This document shows positions 476 through 44,012 of a stretch of 50,571 nucleotides of DNA, piece after piece (within the stretch, counting starts at the first letter, position 1; every line of letters begins with the position of its first letter). The translations under genes were made by a program, and so were the position numbers. Source of the stretch: a virus; IMG/VR virus record IMGVR_UViG_3300037264_004382, positions 1 to 50,571 of that record; one strand, 5' to 3'. The notes under the pieces were generated by a model. It was not told where the DNA came from and searched no databases. It saw only the letters and a program-made list of their open reading frames with translations.

Positions 476-706
476 CTAGCTCGGGTCGACGAGAAAGTAG
501 CCAGGATCCCCATCTTCGTAGCGCTCCAGGATGCCACAGGAGCGACGATATCTGTTCTCGTAGCACGGAGTACAGACGTGCAACTTGGCGGTGGATCCAC
601 AACCAGTATTGTTGCACCTTACATCGTGCACGCAACTGTGATGTGGACACCGGCATTTGTGGTTCAGACGATTCAGTTTACTACACCTCACAGATTCCTC
701 CCTCAT
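476..706 (-). CDS. Small Cys/His-rich putative zinc-binding protein (copy 1)
   Basis: 76 residues with ATG at 706-704 and a strong SD (GGGGGG) 5 nt upstream. The Cys/His pattern is HxCxCxxHxCxxxVxC, then GC, then LHVCxxC. The same pattern recurs in the gene at 2788-2982, so the two are paralogues: both share an H-C-C-H-C cluster, a VxC, a GC and LHVCxxC. Such spacing suggests one or two structural zinc sites, typical of small phage regulators or nucleic acid binders. No family is recognised. The start region is duplicated just upstream (see repeat 701-782). Confidence 0.65.
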   Translation of the reverse strand: MREESVRCSKLNRLNHKCRCPHHSCVHDVRCNNTGCGSTAKLHVCTPCYENRYRRSCGILERYEDGDPGYFLVDPS

Positions 707-782
707 TTCTACCCCCCTTAATGATGTGTAGAAATCTCTGCCTCACATTCCTACCTCCTTTAATGATGTGTAGGGATCCCTG
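701..782. repeat. Imperfect tandem duplication of a gene junction
   Basis: Two adjacent units, 701-740 and 741-782, share the core TTAATGATGTGTAG and similar flanks. On the leftward strand each unit holds the last codons and stop of the receiver-domain gene (ACACATCATTAA), then a purine-rich SD, then an ATG. In the copy next to 476-706 the ATG opens that gene. In the upstream copy the ATG is followed at once by TGA, giving a start-stop codon behind a good SD (GGAGG). Confidence 0.7.
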
Positions 783-1167
783 CATAGTGCAGAACAGCCT
801 TCCCCAACCACCCCTTGTCTGCCGAAAAGGCAAACCTTCCCGTGGGAATACCCCCCTCTGCTAGAAGTTTAGTCATAAAAGTAGCCCCCGGGGGATTCCA
901 TGAGTGAACTAGTACATACTTAGGTTGCTCCCTTTTGGGGCGAGTGAGTAGAAAATGCACTAACTCTACCCCCGTCATCAACCCCACCCCTAAGTCATGG
1001 TCGAGACAAAGAAGATCGAGGGTAGGGTTTTGTGGCGTGGTAATCCATTCAACCACCTCTTCACCACTGTAGAAATGATGAATACGCGAGCCCACTGCAT
1101 AGAGTTGCTCGTGTCTTACCCTTTGGTCGTCTAGGAAGCCGATTTCTATTAGATGGCTCATCACCAT
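760..1167 (-). CDS. Cyclic-phosphate-processing receiver (cREC-like) domain protein
   Basis: 135 residues. The N-terminal strand ends in an acidic pair (D13, D14). A central LCLDHDLG block (D56, H57, D58) is followed by TGVEL, then YVLVHSWNPPGA (H88, N91) and a C-terminal helix. This order (acidic DD, LDHDLG, TGxEL, VHSxNPxG) matches the receiver-like fold family predicted to process cyclic phosphates at RNA or nucleotide ends; the family link is from memory of the motif. Conserved D and H residues are intact, so it is likely an active enzyme rather than a phospho-acceptor. The start at 1167 overlaps the stop of 1161-1352. A role in RNA end repair or in countering cyclic nucleotide signalling would be inference. 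Confidence 0.65.
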   Translation of the reverse strand: MVMSHLIEIGFLDDQRVRHEQLYAVGSRIHHFYSGEEVVEWITTPQNPTLDLLCLDHDLGVGLMTGVELVHFLLTRPKREQPKYVLVHSWNPPGATFMTKLLAEGGIPTGRFAFSADKGWLGKAVLHYAGIPTHH

Positions 1168-1352
1168 GTAGGTGGGCCTTCATTCCCCTTGACTGCTTTA
1201 CTTTCCCTAGTCAAGAGCCTCCGCACTACATCTGATCTTCCTACGTTGAAGCCTGAGATGGAGCGGTAGTGGGTTACAAGGTAGTCAAGGGCTTCCTGTG
1301 CTGGCTTATCGAGGGTGAAGGTGTAGGTTAGGTTGTCTACTAAGGCTTTCAT
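1161..1352 (-). CDS. Small ribbon-helix-helix-like protein
   Basis: 63 residues. It starts with a beta-like segment (VDNLTYTFTLD), then a helix (PAQEALDYLVTHYR), then GRSDVVRRLL, the kind of second helix seen in CopG/Arc-type DNA-binding dimers. The ATG at 1352-1350 overlaps the stop of the Ala-rich gene upstream (ATGA), and its own stop overlaps the start of the cREC gene, so all three are probably coupled. It may act as a small transcription regulator of this module. The family is not certain, because the order of strand and helices is only approximately RHH. Confidence 0.55.
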   Translation of the reverse strand: MKALVDNLTYTFTLDKPAQEALDYLVTHYRSISGFNVGRSDVVRRLLTRESKAVKGNEGPPTW

Positions 1353-1615
1353 CTATTCGCCTCCACGCTGGCCTCCAAGGCTGCCGAAGCTGCCCTCGCC
1401 GCCGCTGCTGAAGCTGCCATCTTAGCCCCCGACTTCGCCGCCTTCGCCGCTGCCCTCGCCGCTGCCTCCGCCGCTGCCGAAGCGCTGGCCGAAGCGTAGG
1501 AAGAGGCAGCTTCGGCAGCCTTGAGGGCGGCGAGGGCAGCGGCGTAGGCAGCAGCTTCGACAGCTAAGAGAGTCACTTGACTAGGCGGACTCATCGCTTT
1601 GTTTAGTTTTATCAT
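1349..1615 (-). CDS. Alanine-rich helical protein, short paralogue
   Basis: 88 residues. ATG at 1615-1613 overlaps the stop of the larger Ala-rich gene as ATGA, which fixes the start; a longer frame to 1984 would run through that gene in another phase and encodes an implausible Arg/Cys-rich stretch. After about 18 ordinary residues the protein is mainly Ala with E, K, R, S and Y at spaced positions. It should form one long amphipathic helix or coiled coil. It is more charged (K/R/E) than its neighbour, whose repeat uses D, N, Y and T. Function unknown; the two adjacent genes probably arose by duplication or shared repeat expansion. Confidence 0.6.
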   Translation of the reverse strand: MIKLNKAMSPPSQVTLLAVEAAAYAAALAALKAAEAASSYASASASAAAEAAARAAAKAAKSGAKMAASAAAARAASAALEASVEANR

Positions 1616-2355
1616 AGATATGCCACCCCTGGTGCTTTCAGCTCGATCAAGGAATCCAAGGCCAACTTGGCCGAAAGCAGGAGATACTTGTCCTGGTCGT
1701 CCCCGATACCAACAGCATTGACGGCATTGACGGCATTGGCGGCGGCGGTGGCGGCAGCGTAGGAGGCATTGGCGGCGGCATTGGCGGCGGCATCGGCGGC
1801 ATCGGCGGCGGTGGTGGCAGCGTAGGCGGCATTGTAGACGGCATTGGCGGCGGCATCGGCGGCATCGGCGGCGTAGGCGGCATCGGCGGCGGCGTAAGCA
1901 TTGGCTGCCTCGGCTGCCTCGGCTGCCTCGGCGGCTGCCTCCTTTGATCCTTCTTTTTCGCACAGATCCGCGGCAGCCATGCACTGCACGTCATGGCTTA
2001 ACACGTCCCGAAACAGAGTTGGTATTAGCACGCGGATCGTTTTCTCGGCCACTAACCCTGCGAACTGGCCGACCGACAAGGAGTTTCCGGTGCCGAGTTG
2101 AGCAATTGCTAGGTCGCGCATTCCTACAGCGCGCGCTATGGGGCTTGACCACGGGGAATCATTCAGCCGAATCTTGAACTCTCGAACATCCGCAGCCACG
2201 CAACCGGGATCATCACCATGCGGCAGGCCCATAGCCTCACAGATCGCCGCCTCCACGCATACCTGTGCGCCTTGCGTGCCAAGACCATGCGATAGCCCAC
2301 GAGCCAAGATCGCGTCAATCTTCGGTACTAATACCTCGAAATTCAACTCTCCCAT
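1612..2355 (-). CDS. Protein with N-terminal globular domain and Ala-repeat helix
   Basis: 247 residues. Residues 1 to about 135 are ordinary and look folded (VEAAICEAMGLPHGDDPGC, then REFKIRLND). Residues about 140-215 are a run of Ala units spaced by D, N, Y or T (AADAAYAADAADAAANA type). A normal C-terminal segment of about 30 residues follows. The repeat has no fixed period, but polar residues recur every 3-4 positions, so a long solvent-exposed helix is likely. The DNA reads as GGC/GGT-rich repeats on the + strand, prone to slippage. I recall similar environmental phage proteins without known function. Helical Ala arrays of this kind also occur in type I ice-binding proteins, but nothing else supports that. 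Confidence 0.65.
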   Translation of the reverse strand: MGELNFEVLVPKIDAILARGLSHGLGTQGAQVCVEAAICEAMGLPHGDDPGCVAADVREFKIRLNDSPWSSPIARAVGMRDLAIAQLGTGNSLSVGQFAGLVAEKTIRVLIPTLFRDVLSHDVQCMAAADLCEKEGSKEAAAEAAEAAEAANAYAAADAAYAADAADAAANAVYNAAYAATTAADAADAAANAAANASYAAATAAANAVNAVNAVGIGDDQDKYLLLSAKLALDSLIELKAPGVAYL

Positions 2356-2377: not shown

Positions 2378-2599
2378 CTAGTCTAGAACTTTCAAGATTG
2401 AAAGCTCCTCCAATTGATTGGATTTTCCTACCCTTCTAAGGTAGTCAAGCCCCCCATCAACTGCATTCCCACATGGGCAGGCCACAAAGTCATGACGATG
2501 CTTAGAAATGAGAACTGTTTTGCATTTCTTACACTTAGCGGAGTTAAGAAATATCTTCTTGTGGTCCCCTGAGGTCCAGCGCCTGTCGAATATGGTCAA
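2378..2599 (-). CDS. Small zinc-ribbon phage protein (CxxC ... HDF..CxCG..VDGGLDYLRR)
   Basis: 73 residues, TTG start at 2599-2597 behind a strong SD (AGGAGGAAG). It contains CKKC (about residues 23-26), KHRHDF, CPCG and VDGGLDYLRR. This combination is a widespread small phage protein family of unknown function (I recall it as DUF7695-like; the label should be checked). The two Cys pairs probably bind one zinc. It sits between the Ala-rich gene and a small hypothetical gene in the leftward operon. Confidence 0.7.
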   Translation of the reverse strand: MTIFDRRWTSGDHKKIFLNSAKCKKCKTVLISKHRHDFVACPCGNAVDGGLDYLRRVGKSNQLEELSILKVLD

Positions 2600-2615: not shown

Positions 2616-2801
2616 CTACTTCTTGCAGAGAGCCTCAAAAGCCTCCCCTACAGGGCTCCAATAGGTGAGGATAAAAACAAGTCTTCCAAGGGATAGGGAG
2701 ATTTCAGGCTCCTCGCCACCTTTCATGAGAATGCGCCAGATGGGAGTATGATACCTCCACAGGATGGAAAAGGAGAGAACTCTGGCTCTAATGGTCTTCA
2801 A
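2616..2801 (-). CDS. Hypothetical small protein
   Basis: 61 residues if the TTG at 2801-2799 is used, overlapping the end of the Cys-rich gene by 14 nt. No good SD precedes this TTG. A shorter version from the ATG encoding MKGGEEPEISL (36 residues) is possible. The central SLGRLVFILTYW segment is hydrophobic enough for a weak membrane or buried strand. It fills the gap between two well-supported genes on the same strand and lacks rare-looking sequence, but I recognise nothing in it. Confidence 0.35.
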   Translation of the reverse strand: MKTIRARVLSFSILWRYHTPIWRILMKGGEEPEISLSLGRLVFILTYWSPVGEAFEALCKK

Positions 2802-2982
2802 GGCTGTTCACCGTCTGGCCCGTCGGTTCGAGTGACTCGTGGATGACCTGACATGCAGGCTTAGGTTCGCAGGACGAGCAGACGTGCAGAGGAACACAAC
2901 CCCTGACGCGGCAAGTCACGATGTTTTTGCAGTCGTGTCCTTCACACTGGCACTCATGTACGTAGGACTCTATCTCCATCAT
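2788..2982 (-). CDS. Small Cys/His-rich putative zinc-binding protein (copy 2)
   Basis: 64 residues from the ATGATG at 2982, chosen because it overlaps the stop of the upstream gene and has GGGGAAAG upstream; the track-like longer TTG version would run 36 nt into that gene. The pattern HxCxCxxHxCxxxVxCxxxGC then LHVCxxC repeats that of 476-706. Two diverged paralogues of a zinc-binding protein within 2.3 kb suggest duplication or independent acquisition. Probably a small nucleic acid or protein binding factor; function unknown. Confidence 0.65.
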   Translation of the reverse strand: MMEIESYVHECQCEGHDCKNIVTCRVRGCVPLHVCSSCEPKPACQVIHESLEPTGQTVNSLEDH

Positions 2983-3176
2983 TGCCCTATCTTTCCCCTC
3001 TTCACGGGGCAGCAACACTCAAACTTCGCGATGAAGCGGGCGCGGTTGAATCTCGGGTTTGACGCCGCGAGCACGTCCGCAAGTGCAATTACGATTACTG
3101 CCCACGCCTCACGGTGGTTTACGCCCTTGACTTCGTTGAGCGCCGCCGCGATCGCTTGATAGTCCTTCTTGCTCAT
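2979..3176 (-). CDS. Conserved small phage protein (YxxIAAALN...AW..V..ALADVLAxxNPRFxRxRF)
   Basis: 65 residues, ATG at 3176-3174 after a strong SD (AGGGGGAGG). Two helices are evident: KKDYQAIAAALNEVK and REAWAVIVIALADVLAASN, followed by PRFNRARFIAKF. I recognise this layout from many unrelated phages, where it is a short all-helical protein of unknown function. The C-terminus ends in a CCC tract and basic residues. Its stop overlaps the ATG of 2788-2982. Confidence 0.7.
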   Translation of the reverse strand: MSKKDYQAIAAALNEVKGVNHREAWAVIVIALADVLAASNPRFNRARFIAKFECCCPVKRGKIGQ

Positions 3177-3334: not shown

Positions 3335-4276
3335 TTAGGCGATCTCGACGGCTTCGTTGACGGTGGCCGGCTTCGGCTTCTTCTTCGCGGCGGGGGCGGG
3401 GCGGTCAGCGTCCTGGGCAGTCAAGACCGGGACTGCTTCGGAATCGGCGGCCTGCTCGGAGTTGAACATCTTGAATGACTTCCCGTCCAGGATCACGGTG
3501 CATGAAACCTCAACGGTCTTGCCGTCGCGCTCCACAATGGCACGCGGCAGGAAGATCACAAGGGCCGGGGTGATGACCTCGGTCCCGTCCTTCTTAGCTG
3601 AGGTCACTGTCTCGACGCTCGCAAACTTCACGAGGGGCTTACGGGCTTCCTTGCCTTCGGAGGTTTGCTTGACCGTGGGCAGGGTGAGCGGCCCACCGTT
3701 GATACCCTCTGCTGCTGTCCAGATCGCGACCAAGTTCTCTTTGACTTCGGAGATATCCAGATCGTTCTGCGCTTTGGTCGAGATACCAAGTGCCTTCTTG
3801 ACGGCACGGGCTGGAGCGGTCCAGGTTGTGAGGTAGGGGGTTTCCTCGCCTGTCTGGCTGTCCTTCCTCAGTGAGACGGACGGGGGGAAGGCGTGCAGGG
3901 TGAGGGCGGCGAGTGCGGCCCCGATAAGCTCGCCCCGGTCTGAAACGTGATGTGAGACGACGACCACGGGAACGCCGTCTACCAAGGTGGTACGATTACG
4001 GATCGGGTCTGAGATCGGCTGAAGGTACTCGTAGTAGGCGGGGCCTACCACGTTACCGTTAGGCTTGTGTTGCTCGACGTTCCGAGAGGTACACGCTCCA
4101 AAGACCGCGCGATAGGGGGCCATCGGCTCATTGATGGCGTCCCCAATCTTACCGGCTGCCCGTTGGATGATCGGCTCGCACGCGGCCAGGAGAGCCGCGA
4201 TTGACATGCTGACAGCCAGTGCCGAGTCAGTCGAGGACGTGACAGGCTCGGGGGCCGTGTTCTGCTCGTTCGACAT
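3335..4276 (-). CDS. Hypothetical protein, possible ssDNA/recombination accessory
   Basis: 313 residues from the ATG at 4276-4274, preceded by GGAG at about 10 nt; an upstream in-frame start at 4306 lies inside a hairpin and lacks an SD. The N-terminus is Thr/Ser/Pro-rich and probably disordered. A helical region follows (residues about 25-55), then an alpha/beta middle with DRGELIGAALAALTLHAFPP. The C-terminus is KKKPKPA-rich and acidic at the end. It is the largest gene of the left arm, GC-rich, and has its own leader with several inverted repeats, so it is probably well expressed and regulated. I do not recognise the family; its size and position fit phage recombination-associated proteins, but no motif proves it. 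Confidence 0.6.
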   Translation of the reverse strand: MSNEQNTAPEPVTSSTDSALAVSMSIAALLAACEPIIQRAAGKIGDAINEPMAPYRAVFGACTSRNVEQHKPNGNVVGPAYYEYLQPISDPIRNRTTLVDGVPVVVVSHHVSDRGELIGAALAALTLHAFPPSVSLRKDSQTGEETPYLTTWTAPARAVKKALGISTKAQNDLDISEVKENLVAIWTAAEGINGGPLTLPTVKQTSEGKEARKPLVKFASVETVTSAKKDGTEVITPALVIFLPRAIVERDGKTVEVSCTVILDGKSFKMFNSEQAADSEAVPVLTAQDADRPAPAAKKKPKPATVNEAVEIA

Positions 4277-4301
4277 AGGGTTAACTCCAGGAATAGGCTT
4301 G

Positions 4302-4463
4302 AGCACTTCACCTTTGGAGGTGAGTGCTTTCGGCCTGGTAGGTTTTCAAAGAACTGACTCGGCAACTTGAGTCAGGGTAAGTGCTCTAAGAGTGAAGGAG
4401 TTGCTTTAGTGTAGGGAGCACTAGGAAGTCAACGGTCTAGATGGTAGGCTAAATCGTTGACTT
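4302..4463 (-). promoter_or_regulatory. Leader with three inverted repeats upstream of 3335-4276
   Basis: Three inverted repeats lie in the 200-nt gap between two leftward genes. 4302-4328: AGCACTTCACCT and AGGTGAGTGCT with a TTGG loop, one bulge, just above the SD of 3335-4276. 4354-4375: CTGACTC and GAGTCAG, perfect, 8-nt spacer. 4426-4463: AAGTCAACG and CGTTGACTT, perfect, 20-nt spacer. The last includes TTGACT, a -35-like hexamer on the leftward strand, but the best -10 at normal distance (TAAAGC/CTAAAG) is poor. AGTGCT and AGGTGA half-sites recur through the gap. Probably an operator/attenuator region. Confidence 0.45.
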
Positions 4464-40748: not shown

Positions 40749-40765
40749 GGAGCCCAAGTCCTTAG
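40745..40765. terminator. Palindrome at convergent gene ends
   Basis: CTAAGGA (40745-40751) and TCCTTAG (40759-40765) pair around GCCCAAG and contain the stop codons of both converging genes. Only 7 bp and no T-tract, so a weak bidirectional terminator at best. No other terminator separates the two arms. Confidence 0.3.
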
Positions 40766-41946
40766 TGCATCTCTCCAAGCGAAATCCCCTCCTTAGCGTC
40801 GGTCTCGACCATCAACCCCCCAAGCTGCGGCCACTGTCTCTCCATCGAGGCGCGAACAATTCCACCTGCCTCTTGACCACAGCCCATCTTCACCATAGTG
40901 GTGATCGCGTCATGGGTTGGGATGAGGAGCCAGAAAATCTTCCCGTGGAGCGGGTGGTTTGACAAATCCACGAGGCACTCCCTCAGCATAGCCGCGCAAG
41001 TGCCCTGAGGGAGGCAGGAGAGGGCCTCATTAGCCTCTTTCCCGAGAACCCACTTCTCTCCCTCCTTCCTAAAGACCTCGAAGAATGAAAGGGAATAGCC
41101 AAAGGGATTAGTGAGCTTGCCCTCTGTGTGAGCCATTAGTCTAACTGTCTCCTGCCACTTCTTTACCTTAGGTGCCATCTCCTCATAGATAAGGTCGAGC
41201 CTTTTAACCTCAGCCACACTCACACCCAGATCGAGGGCCATGTTATAAATACCTTGGCCATATGACCCACCGTGAATGCGCTTCTTCGCCCTAGCCCGCA
41301 CATCATTATGATTTGCCTTGAGCCACTCGATGAATTCAGGCAGCTTGGGGTCTTGTGGGTGAATCGGTTTAGGGATAATACCATCCCTATACAGAAGGTG
41401 GCTTGCAAATATGTCATGCACCCCCTTCCTCGCGGCTTCCATGTAGAGGGGATCCTCCGCGAAGTATCCTACTAGGAGGGCTTCTATTGCTTTCCAGTCA
41501 CGCTCCTGGAAAAACCATCCCTCCTCTGGGATTATAGTCGAGCGTACTGCCTGAGCTACTTCATAAGCGACTGACCCTGGCCCCTCCCTACCCTGAGGAA
41601 TGTTCATCACATTCGGGGCCTTTGAGGCCAGTCTTCCTGTTTTTACTATAGTATATCTGGGATGAAATCTACCGTCCCTCCCTACAAAGGTATCCTTAAA
41701 GGCCCCCACCCCATCTTTTAGGTCCTTCGCCTCCTTCAGGGCCTTGAGAACGGGGTCGGTGGGGAATTTATATCGAAGGCGATTGATAGCCTCTGCATTG
41801 ACAGTGGGCCTTTTGGTTTTTCTATGCTTGGGGACTTGATAGCCTTTTAGTTTGAGGTAGGCCTGGACATCCTTGGTGGAACCAGGATTGAAGGGGAGAG
41901 GGGTGGCCCATCTTTCCACCTCCACCATCTCAGAGGAGGAGGTCAC
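40762..41946 (-). CDS. Family A DNA polymerase, polymerase domain (C-terminal part of split gene)
   Basis: 394 residues, GTG start overlapping the previous stop (GTGA). FNPGSTKDVQAYL begins the thumb/finger region. TGRLASKAPNVMNIP is the classical TGRLSSxxPNLQNIP-like motif. Motif A is RDWKAIEALL (catalytic D150). Motif B is R217-x3-K221 ... SYG230. Motif C is IPTHDAI (D346), where the usual Glu after HD is Ala. It lacks the exonuclease domain, which is in 42438-44012. Both catalytic aspartates are present, so polymerase activity is plausible. Family A phage enzymes with HDS or HDA are known to me, so the missing Glu is not proof of inactivation. Confidence 0.85.
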   Translation of the reverse strand: MTSSSEMVEVERWATPLPFNPGSTKDVQAYLKLKGYQVPKHRKTKRPTVNAEAINRLRYKFPTDPVLKALKEAKDLKDGVGAFKDTFVGRDGRFHPRYTIVKTGRLASKAPNVMNIPQGREGPGSVAYEVAQAVRSTIIPEEGWFFQERDWKAIEALLVGYFAEDPLYMEAARKGVHDIFASHLLYRDGIIPKPIHPQDPKLPEFIEWLKANHNDVRARAKKRIHGGSYGQGIYNMALDLGVSVAEVKRLDLIYEEMAPKVKKWQETVRLMAHTEGKLTNPFGYSLSFFEVFRKEGEKWVLGKEANEALSCLPQGTCAAMLRECLVDLSNHPLHGKIFWLLIPTHDAITTMVKMGCGQEAGGIVRASMERQWPQLGGLMVETDAKEGISLGEMH

Positions 41947-42315: not shown

Positions 42316-42466
42316 ACTTGGTCACCTTAATCATCTCCGCCTCTTTACCCCCAACAGAGCAGTGGGACAACTTGTTAGGACTCTGGTGTAGATAGAGGAG
42401 CCCTTTTACCTTCTCTTCTCCAACATACTCGATAATCTCATAGCATACTGGGCACTTTAGGATCAT
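42308..42466 (-). CDS. 52-residue zinc-ribbon-like protein overlapping the polymerase N-terminal gene
   Basis: ATG at 42466-42464 with AAGGAAGAGGA just upstream, an excellent SD inside the C-terminal codons of 42438-44012. CPVCYEIIEYVG and LLYLHQSPNKLSHCSVG supply CxxC, His and Cys. First of the three small ORFs in the polymerase break. Overlap of 29 nt with the upstream gene suggests coupled translation. Confidence 0.55.
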   Translation of the reverse strand: MILKCPVCYEIIEYVGEEKVKGLLYLHQSPNKLSHCSVGGKEAEMIKVTKYV

Positions 42467-44012
42467 TCCTCTTCCTTTCCTTTTTCACCTTAGGGTGACA
42501 CTCACACTTGAAGGACTTAGGGCGGGCCTTAGTGTGAGCGCAGACACAAGCAACCAACCCCTTTTCATAATCACCACACGTGAAACAATGCTTATGCTTC
42601 ACCTTCTCCATGACCTTCACCTTCACCATGGTGTTCACATCAAGGCCCCTCTTTATTAGTGTCTCTTCGGAGAGCTTATAGACCTTGAGCTTTCTCGCCT
42701 TGAGTGGTATAAGAGGCGCAAGCTCCGCGAGCTTTTCCTGATACCTCGCCTCAAACCTCCCCCTTGCCTCCACTCGCTTTTCCTGACTCACTTGGATGCC
42801 CCTTCTAGTCATTGCCTTGAGCACTTGGGTTAGCTGAATGAAGTGCTTATCAAAGACCCCCCATCGGCCCTGCTCTTCTAAAACTTTCTTGGTTCTAGCC
42901 AGAACTCGCCACAGTACATCACTGTCGGCCGCGCTGTACCACTCTGGCTCCGACTTGCTCGATAGCTTCCACGCTGGCATATCTGGACAGTCAAAGGTGG
43001 CTGCGTATTTGAGTCCCATTGGCAGGGCCGGTTCCCTGAAGTGCCAAGCATCCATTCCGTCGATGAGTGGTCCATTTATCTCACACCCATTCGCTTCTAG
43101 ACGGGGGCAGTCGAAGTGTTGGTTCCAGACGGCTTTCTCCCCTGAAGAAGCCAGTGCAAGACGTGCATAGTCTGAGAAAGGGGGGCACCATGGAAAGGTA
43201 ATCGCCTCTCCAGAACAGTACGAAAACGAGATTCTATTGATCGTGTAGGAAGGGTCATCTTCTAGATTTATCTCCTCGACCTCAGGATCTATGAGGTCAT
43301 CCTTGAACATACTAGAATGGGGGGTCTCGATATCGAATGCGAGAGTTATTGTGGGGTCTTTCTTTAGGGTCTCTAGGTATTCTTGCACCCACTTCTCCAC
43401 CTCCATGGGGGAGGGCCGGAGGATGTAATGCTTTTCTAGGACAGGCACCCCGCAGCGTGCTACATATAGGGCTCGCTTGAGATCATTCTGCCACACCCTG
43501 GCAAGGTGAAAATTGCCCCTCATAATATAGGAAGGGTGGTAAGTGGGGATCACCGGTCCCCACTTGCTCTGAAAAATGTAGCCCCTCAGCTTCTCAATTC
43601 CCCACTCACCAGTGAACCACCTTAAAGGTTGGTTCCCCAGTGTGAGAATGACCTTCGGCTTCCATCTTTCGAGGAGTCCCTCAAGGTGTGGTCTACAGTG
43701 GTTAATGGCCCCAAGCTCATAGGGTGCTCCGGTGAGGTGGTTATCAGGGGGTCGGCAGGAGAGGACATTGGCGAGGGCGAACTGGCTCCTCTCAAGGAGG
43801 AATCCCGTGTCTGGGTCCCTTGTTCTTTCGAGCATCCTGGTAAAGACCTTACCAGCGCCTCCCACGAGTATGTCCCCAGCCGCCGCCTCCTCCTCTCCGA
43901 GGGCCTCCGCGACAATAACAACCCCAAGCTTAGGGTCGCCACGGCCCACAACATAACCTGTAGGCTTATAAGAAATAAGTGGGCAAGTCTTGCAAAGAAG
44001 TCCACTAGACAA
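42438..44012 (-). CDS. Uracil-DNA glycosylase/3'-5' exonuclease fusion (N-terminal part of split family A polymerase)
   Basis: 524 residues, TTG start. Residues 1-180 are a family 4-like UDG: C7, C10, C86 and C106 match the four 4Fe-4S ligands, EALGEEEAAAGDILVGGAG the first active-site block, TYHPSYIMRG the last. Residues 222-375 are a DnaQ-like exonuclease: DIE (D227, E229), NQHFD (N297, D301) and YSAAD (Y359, D363). Residues 376-470 hold the start of the polymerase region, with AMTRRGIQVS. The tail (C476, C479, C489, C491, C503, C505) is a zinc-ribbon-like insert. UDG-polymerase fusions are known for SPO1-type phages; here the polymerase core is on a separate gene. Confidence 0.82.
   Translation of the reverse strand: MSSGLLCKTCPLISYKPTGYVVGRGDPKLGVVIVAEALGEEEAAAGDILVGGAGKVFTRMLERTRDPDTGFLLERSQFALANVLSCRPPDNHLTGAPYELGAINHCRPHLEGLLERWKPKVILTLGNQPLRWFTGEWGIEKLRGYIFQSKWGPVIPTYHPSYIMRGNFHLARVWQNDLKRALYVARCGVPVLEKHYILRPSPMEVEKWVQEYLETLKKDPTITLAFDIETPHSSMFKDDLIDPEVEEINLEDDPSYTINRISFSYCSGEAITFPWCPPFSDYARLALASSGEKAVWNQHFDCPRLEANGCEINGPLIDGMDAWHFREPALPMGLKYAATFDCPDMPAWKLSSKSEPEWYSAADSDVLWRVLARTKKVLEEQGRWGVFDKHFIQLTQVLKAMTRRGIQVSQEKRVEARGRFEARYQEKLAELAPLIPLKARKLKVYKLSEETLIKRGLDVNTMVKVKVMEKVKHKHCFTCGDYEKGLVACVCAHTKARPKSFKCECHPKVKKERKRNDPKVPSML

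Follow-up and report, generated by a model that had tools for sequence, protein, structure and literature searches.

A stand-alone phage protein of the cREC family, most likely an enzyme, and a test of its RNA-repair gene context

The DNA analysed here, referred to in its whole length as the window, makes up one virus record, 50,571 bases long, and encodes terminase-like, portal and major head proteins together with a family A DNA polymerase. Near its left end, on the minus strand, lies a small gene whose product we assign to the cREC family, and this gene and its immediate surroundings contain the following features.

760-1167, minus strand (reading from 1167 to 760): cREC-family protein of 135 amino acids (ORF list, Pfam and structure model)
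1161-1352, minus strand: 63-amino-acid ORF directly upstream of cREC, overlapping the cREC start by 7 nucleotides
476-706, minus strand: 76-amino-acid Cys-rich ORF, next downstream of cREC, without a family match (ORF list and Pfam)
704-783, no strand assigned: two-copy 38-nucleotide direct repeat (copies at 704-741 and 746-783; 84% identity, spacing 42)
D13 and D14 of the cREC protein: conserved residues at the end of strand 1
L55-D56-H57-D58-L59-G60 of the cREC protein: conserved residues at the end of strand 3
H88-S89-x-N91-P-P-G-A of the cREC protein: conserved residues at the end of strand 4

The product of the ORF at 760-1167 matched Pfam PF20274 (cREC_REC) over residues 11 to 103 with an E-value of 2.5e-13 and 51 bits, the cut-off being 27, and a search of the whole record with the PF20274 profile gave 51.3 bits at the same ORF, in which internal stops are absent. 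It also matched PHROG 1479, a family of unknown function (E 2.5e-13). NCBIfam, PADLOC and plasmid searches with the cREC protein gave no match; when the PDB was searched by sequence, the single protein drew chance matches only and the cREC profile drew weak receiver matches, the best receiver at an E-value of 0.067. The two motifs from which an earlier note on this DNA had recognized the family, LDHDLG and VHSxNPPGA, were located at residues 55-60 and, as VHSWNPPGA, at residues 87-95. From an alignment of 76 of the 111 non-redundant sequences among the matches listed, AlphaFold2 built a model with five strands alternating with five helices (pLDDT 90.2, pTM 0.83). Foldseek against the PDB placed receivers on top (6xvu_A, E 5.6e-5), and the nearest viral model was A0A6J5LST8, a protein named as cREC (E 1.7e-8). 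Since the family assignment and the fold are both supported, the ground on which the earlier note would have given up the assignment, a predicted fold unlike cREC, falls away, and we regard membership of the cREC family as virtually certain.

To see how widespread such proteins are, two DNA patterns for the paired motifs, with a gap of 63-93 bases, were run on viral contigs. Each of the two scans gave at least 120 matches, compared to 2 matches for a scrambled pattern with the same gap, and every one of the 50 records tested from the real-pattern scans (50 of the 109 loci listed, short contigs being mostly skipped) exceeded the PF20274 cut-off. A chance match of the motifs was ruled out by the PF20274 score of the window protein together with the scrambled-pattern control and these Pfam results. 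Judged from sequence, the cREC family is common in phage contigs, and because many phages carry a cREC protein, the window copy is an ordinary one: it is a new member of a family already in print, and its predicted role is also in print.

For residue conservation, only sequences of 85-160 amino acids were kept among the matches listed, giving 176 rows, or 111 after a 60% identity filter. Both D13 and D14 were found in 111 of 111 rows and an Arg following this pair in 97% of them, all three lying outside the search pattern; in the second alignment (76 rows, again among the matches listed) D14 was invariant and D13 was kept in at least 90%. D56, H57, D58, H88 and N91 were present in all 111 rows listed, and as the scan patterns demand DHD and H-S/T-x-N, the strict conservation of these residues is built in. 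Residues past 111 are poorly shared across the family. A Lys at strand 5 marks signalling receivers. We found no conserved Lys column at this position, and Lys-Pro occurred in the strand-5 region of 3 of 76 rows among the matches listed; cREC therefore seems unlike an ordinary phospho-relay receiver. In essence, cREC shares with CheY-like receivers such as Thermotoga RR468 the fold itself (VIA-align Z 15.6, 1.9-2.0 Å over 114-115 residues), the two acidic residues after strand 1 and the Asp after strand 3, and differs from them in lacking the conserved strand-5 Lys and in carrying DHD after strand 3 and HSxN after strand 4. In a tree of the 111 rows among the matches listed, which is rough given its few alignment columns, the window protein fell within a 14-row clade (support 99/89) that has the DDxxxR form after strand 1, and it stood there on a long branch, its best identity to any tree row among these matches being 41%.

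The TGA of the 63-amino-acid ORF overlaps the cREC start, and together with a second in-frame ATG it forms the junction TGATG. The 7-nucleotide overlap and this junction make translational coupling of the two genes likely from the sequence, so that the description of the operon as coupled was right. The same upstream neighbour had been called RHH-like, which we could not confirm: no weighty Pfam, PHROG or NCBIfam match was obtained for it, and its single-sequence structure model was of low confidence (pLDDT 59). Searches of viral contigs found no relatives of this ORF, nor of the 323-amino-acid ORF at 3335-4306. On the other side of the gene, the 38-nucleotide repeat spans the cREC 3' end and stop codon as well as the region where the following minus-strand ORF starts, apparently as a tandem copy of a stop, ribosome-binding-site and start junction. 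By eye, the Cys-rich ORF at 476-706 looks paralogous to another at 2788-3018 (minus strand), with similar Cys spacing around a common LHVC-x-x-C stretch, and neither has a Pfam match. A further Cys-rich protein, encoded at 2378-2599 (minus strand), belongs to DUF7695, whose function is not known (PF24749, E 2.1e-19), and a DUF7695-type motif was found near none of the other cREC genes (0 of 109 loci among the matches listed). The 247-amino-acid ORF at 1612-2355 (minus strand) has a long Ala-rich, GCC-repeat stretch, and a minus-strand frame overlapping it, at 1349-1984, is open too, which leaves the true frame unsure.

The only relatives of the window portal in the phage collection were those of two Tunturiibacter phages (22% identity over 81%). 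Tunturi_1 has its structural genes on the plus strand and its small and replication genes on the minus strand, as in the window, and no cREC was found in it. From gene order, we infer that the left-end minus-strand genes of the window form its early side; the 'early region' in which cREC had been placed is thus an inference of this kind, by which the gene would be expressed early.

According to the available text of a 2021 paper, cRec was introduced as a divergent receiver for which processing of cADPr or 2',3'-cyclic nucleotides was predicted from gene neighbourhoods (PMC7824862). A 2022 paper, in the part available, repeats this prediction, puts the share of jumbo phages with cRec at up to 18% and describes cREC, NADAR and SLOG as still experimentally uncharacterized (PMC9503650). 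An assay of any cREC was not found in the literature searched, which took in few subscription journals and left bioRxiv outside. The idea that the protein acts on cyclic phosphates consequently agrees with a published prediction and should not be read as demonstrated fact (PMC7824862, PMC9503650, as far as their available text goes). The window protein is like the published cREC in family score, motifs, fold and phage location, but the RNA-ligase, sirtuin, Nudix and 2H neighbours stressed in the available portions of those papers (PMC7824862, PMC9503650) are absent from the window as far as they were tested. The 2H phosphoesterases, whose known or predicted substrates are the cyclic phosphates also predicted for cREC and which are structurally unrelated to it in the account available (PMC9503650), gave no match in the window.

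More broadly, RNA_ligase, RtcB, NUDIX and AAA_33 were not found in the 50,571-base record, which may be a fragment, and the Pfam scan of 66 window ORFs detected no other NAD/ADPr-processing or RNA-repair family. Neither a tRNA gene nor an Rfam RNA family was found in the window, and the window proteins scanned (7 proteins; 66 ORFs) included no known defence or anti-defence family. One of the 66 ORFs carries a RyR domain (PF02026, E 4.9e-9).

Gene context was then examined across the kin of the window protein. In G008 an RtcB gene lies 107 bp from cREC; in G006 an RNA ligase gene lies 767 bp away and tRNA genes stand on either side of cREC; in G012 the RNA ligase gene is 807 bp away; and in Enterococcus phages H1 and EF1, cREC sits within a tRNA array. 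Among the matches listed, a tRNA gene occurred within 2 kb of cREC in 23 of 109 loci, at a density of 0.26 per kb near cREC vs 0.23 per kb in the rest of the same loci. Genes for tRNA were present in 29 of 109 cREC loci among the matches listed and in 0 of 29 random loci. Most of the random contigs are much shorter, and we therefore neither take this contrast as proof nor claim that the presence of RNA ligase is enriched. The ORFs within two of cREC (120 of 248 given) matched 77 Pfam families with no dominant partner; PolyA_pol was represented by three of these ORFs, and RtcB, Thg1 and RlaP by one each.

An RNA ligase or RtcB above the cut-off was present in 30 of 59 cREC records among the matches listed and in none of the other 29. 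In a proximity test that omits sub-cut-off ligase matches and the second cREC of G040, and again among the matches listed, such a gene lay within 5 kb of cREC in 7 of the 30 records, with 3.6 expected, which is marginal (P 0.05), and within 10 kb in 9, with 6.5 expected (P 0.16). The random control records contained RNA_ligase in 6 of 29 and RtcB in 0 of 29, and of the six control records longer than 100 kb, five carried RNA_ligase, four of these being probably near-copies by score. As large control records also carry RNA ligases, record size explains much of the link between cREC and ligase. RtcB was found in 5 of 10 viral records tested from the window's clade vs 6 of 49 others among the matches listed (Fisher P 0.014), a comparison chosen after the data had been seen. 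We therefore rejected gene context as proof of RNA repair, the proximity being marginal and 29 of 59 records having no ligase. Overall, with record size taken into account, cREC and RNA ligase are weakly linked in these 59 viral records (among the matches listed), and since half of the carriers also have no ligase, it would be wrong to treat the RNA-repair reading as settled. The proposal of an anti-defence or RNA-repair factor stands in part: RNA repair is plausible for the family, some of whose members lie beside RtcB, RNA ligase or tRNA genes, but for this phage no feature found in the 50.6 kb suggests RNA repair or a named defence system, and the suggested anti-CBASS action finds no support here.

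Taken together, the 760-1167 product is most likely a stand-alone phage enzyme of the cREC family, and that it opens 2',3'-cyclic phosphate RNA ends is a tentative reading, credible though somewhat on the doubtful side. The receiver-type fold would present the fixed acidic set D13, D14, D56 and D58, along with H57, H88, S89 and N91, where strands 1, 3 and 4 end. Host ribonuclease defences would leave 2',3'-cyclic ends on tRNA or other RNA, cREC would open these cyclic phosphates, and repair enzymes, here presumably those of the host, would then finish the repair, to the possible benefit of the phage.

Alternatively, cREC may block a nucleotide-signalling defence by degrading a soluble immune signal, which would be either a cyclic oligonucleotide or an ADP-ribose cyclic phosphate. 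Such a degrader needs no RNA-repair partner, and it would suit a lone accessory gene carried by many phages amid neighbours as diverse as the 77 Pfam families, as well as the half of the cREC records among the matches listed that have neither RNA ligase nor RtcB; the published predictions, in the text available, also name cADPr and ADPr cyclic phosphate among the compounds processed (PMC7824862, PMC9503650). However, some kin adjoin RtcB or RNA ligase and the scanned window proteins (7 proteins; 66 ORFs) offered no known defence or anti-defence family, and we consider this reading fairly unlikely. A narrower form of it, that the window's clade (14 of 111 rows among the matches listed) includes ligase-independent stand-alone members that destroy a soluble immune signal, which would make the window protein an anti-defence enzyme belonging to a so far unassayed type, is decidedly unlikely.

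It is also unlikely, on present evidence, that cREC serves phage DNA metabolism as a metal-dependent phosphatase or phosphodiesterase of nucleotides, its Asp-rich site binding a divalent metal together with His and Asn. D13, D14, D56, D58, H57, H88 and N91 are rich in possible metal ligands, and the window encodes an NT5C-type phosphatase and a dATP/dGTP diphosphohydrolase N-terminal domain; these genes, however, lie at 46.9-48.0 kb, away from cREC, and the site is described in the available part of one paper as metal-independent, itself a prediction (PMC9503650). A receiver mimic, which would draw phosphate from a host histidine kinase or titrate the kinase, would account for the fold and for the Asp at the end of strand 3, the position of the receiver phospho-acceptor, but the conserved strand-5 Lys is missing, a His occupies the end of strand 4 where receivers have Thr or Ser, the strictly kept DHD and HSxN motifs look catalytic, and the published survey, in its available text, never found cREC with histidine kinases (PMC7824862). 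This makes mimicry very improbable.

The window copy itself adds little, and what may prove useful here is that the argument from gene context has been tested. The family remains worth assaying: direct assays of this small 135-amino-acid protein would be informative for relatives in many phages. Elsewhere in the window, the protein encoded at 42438-44012 (minus strand) has a UDG-superfamily domain (PF03167) and also matches the polymerase family phrog_17, and a separate family A polymerase ORF lies nearby at 40762-41946; the two ORFs may together represent a split polymerase that includes a UDG-like part.
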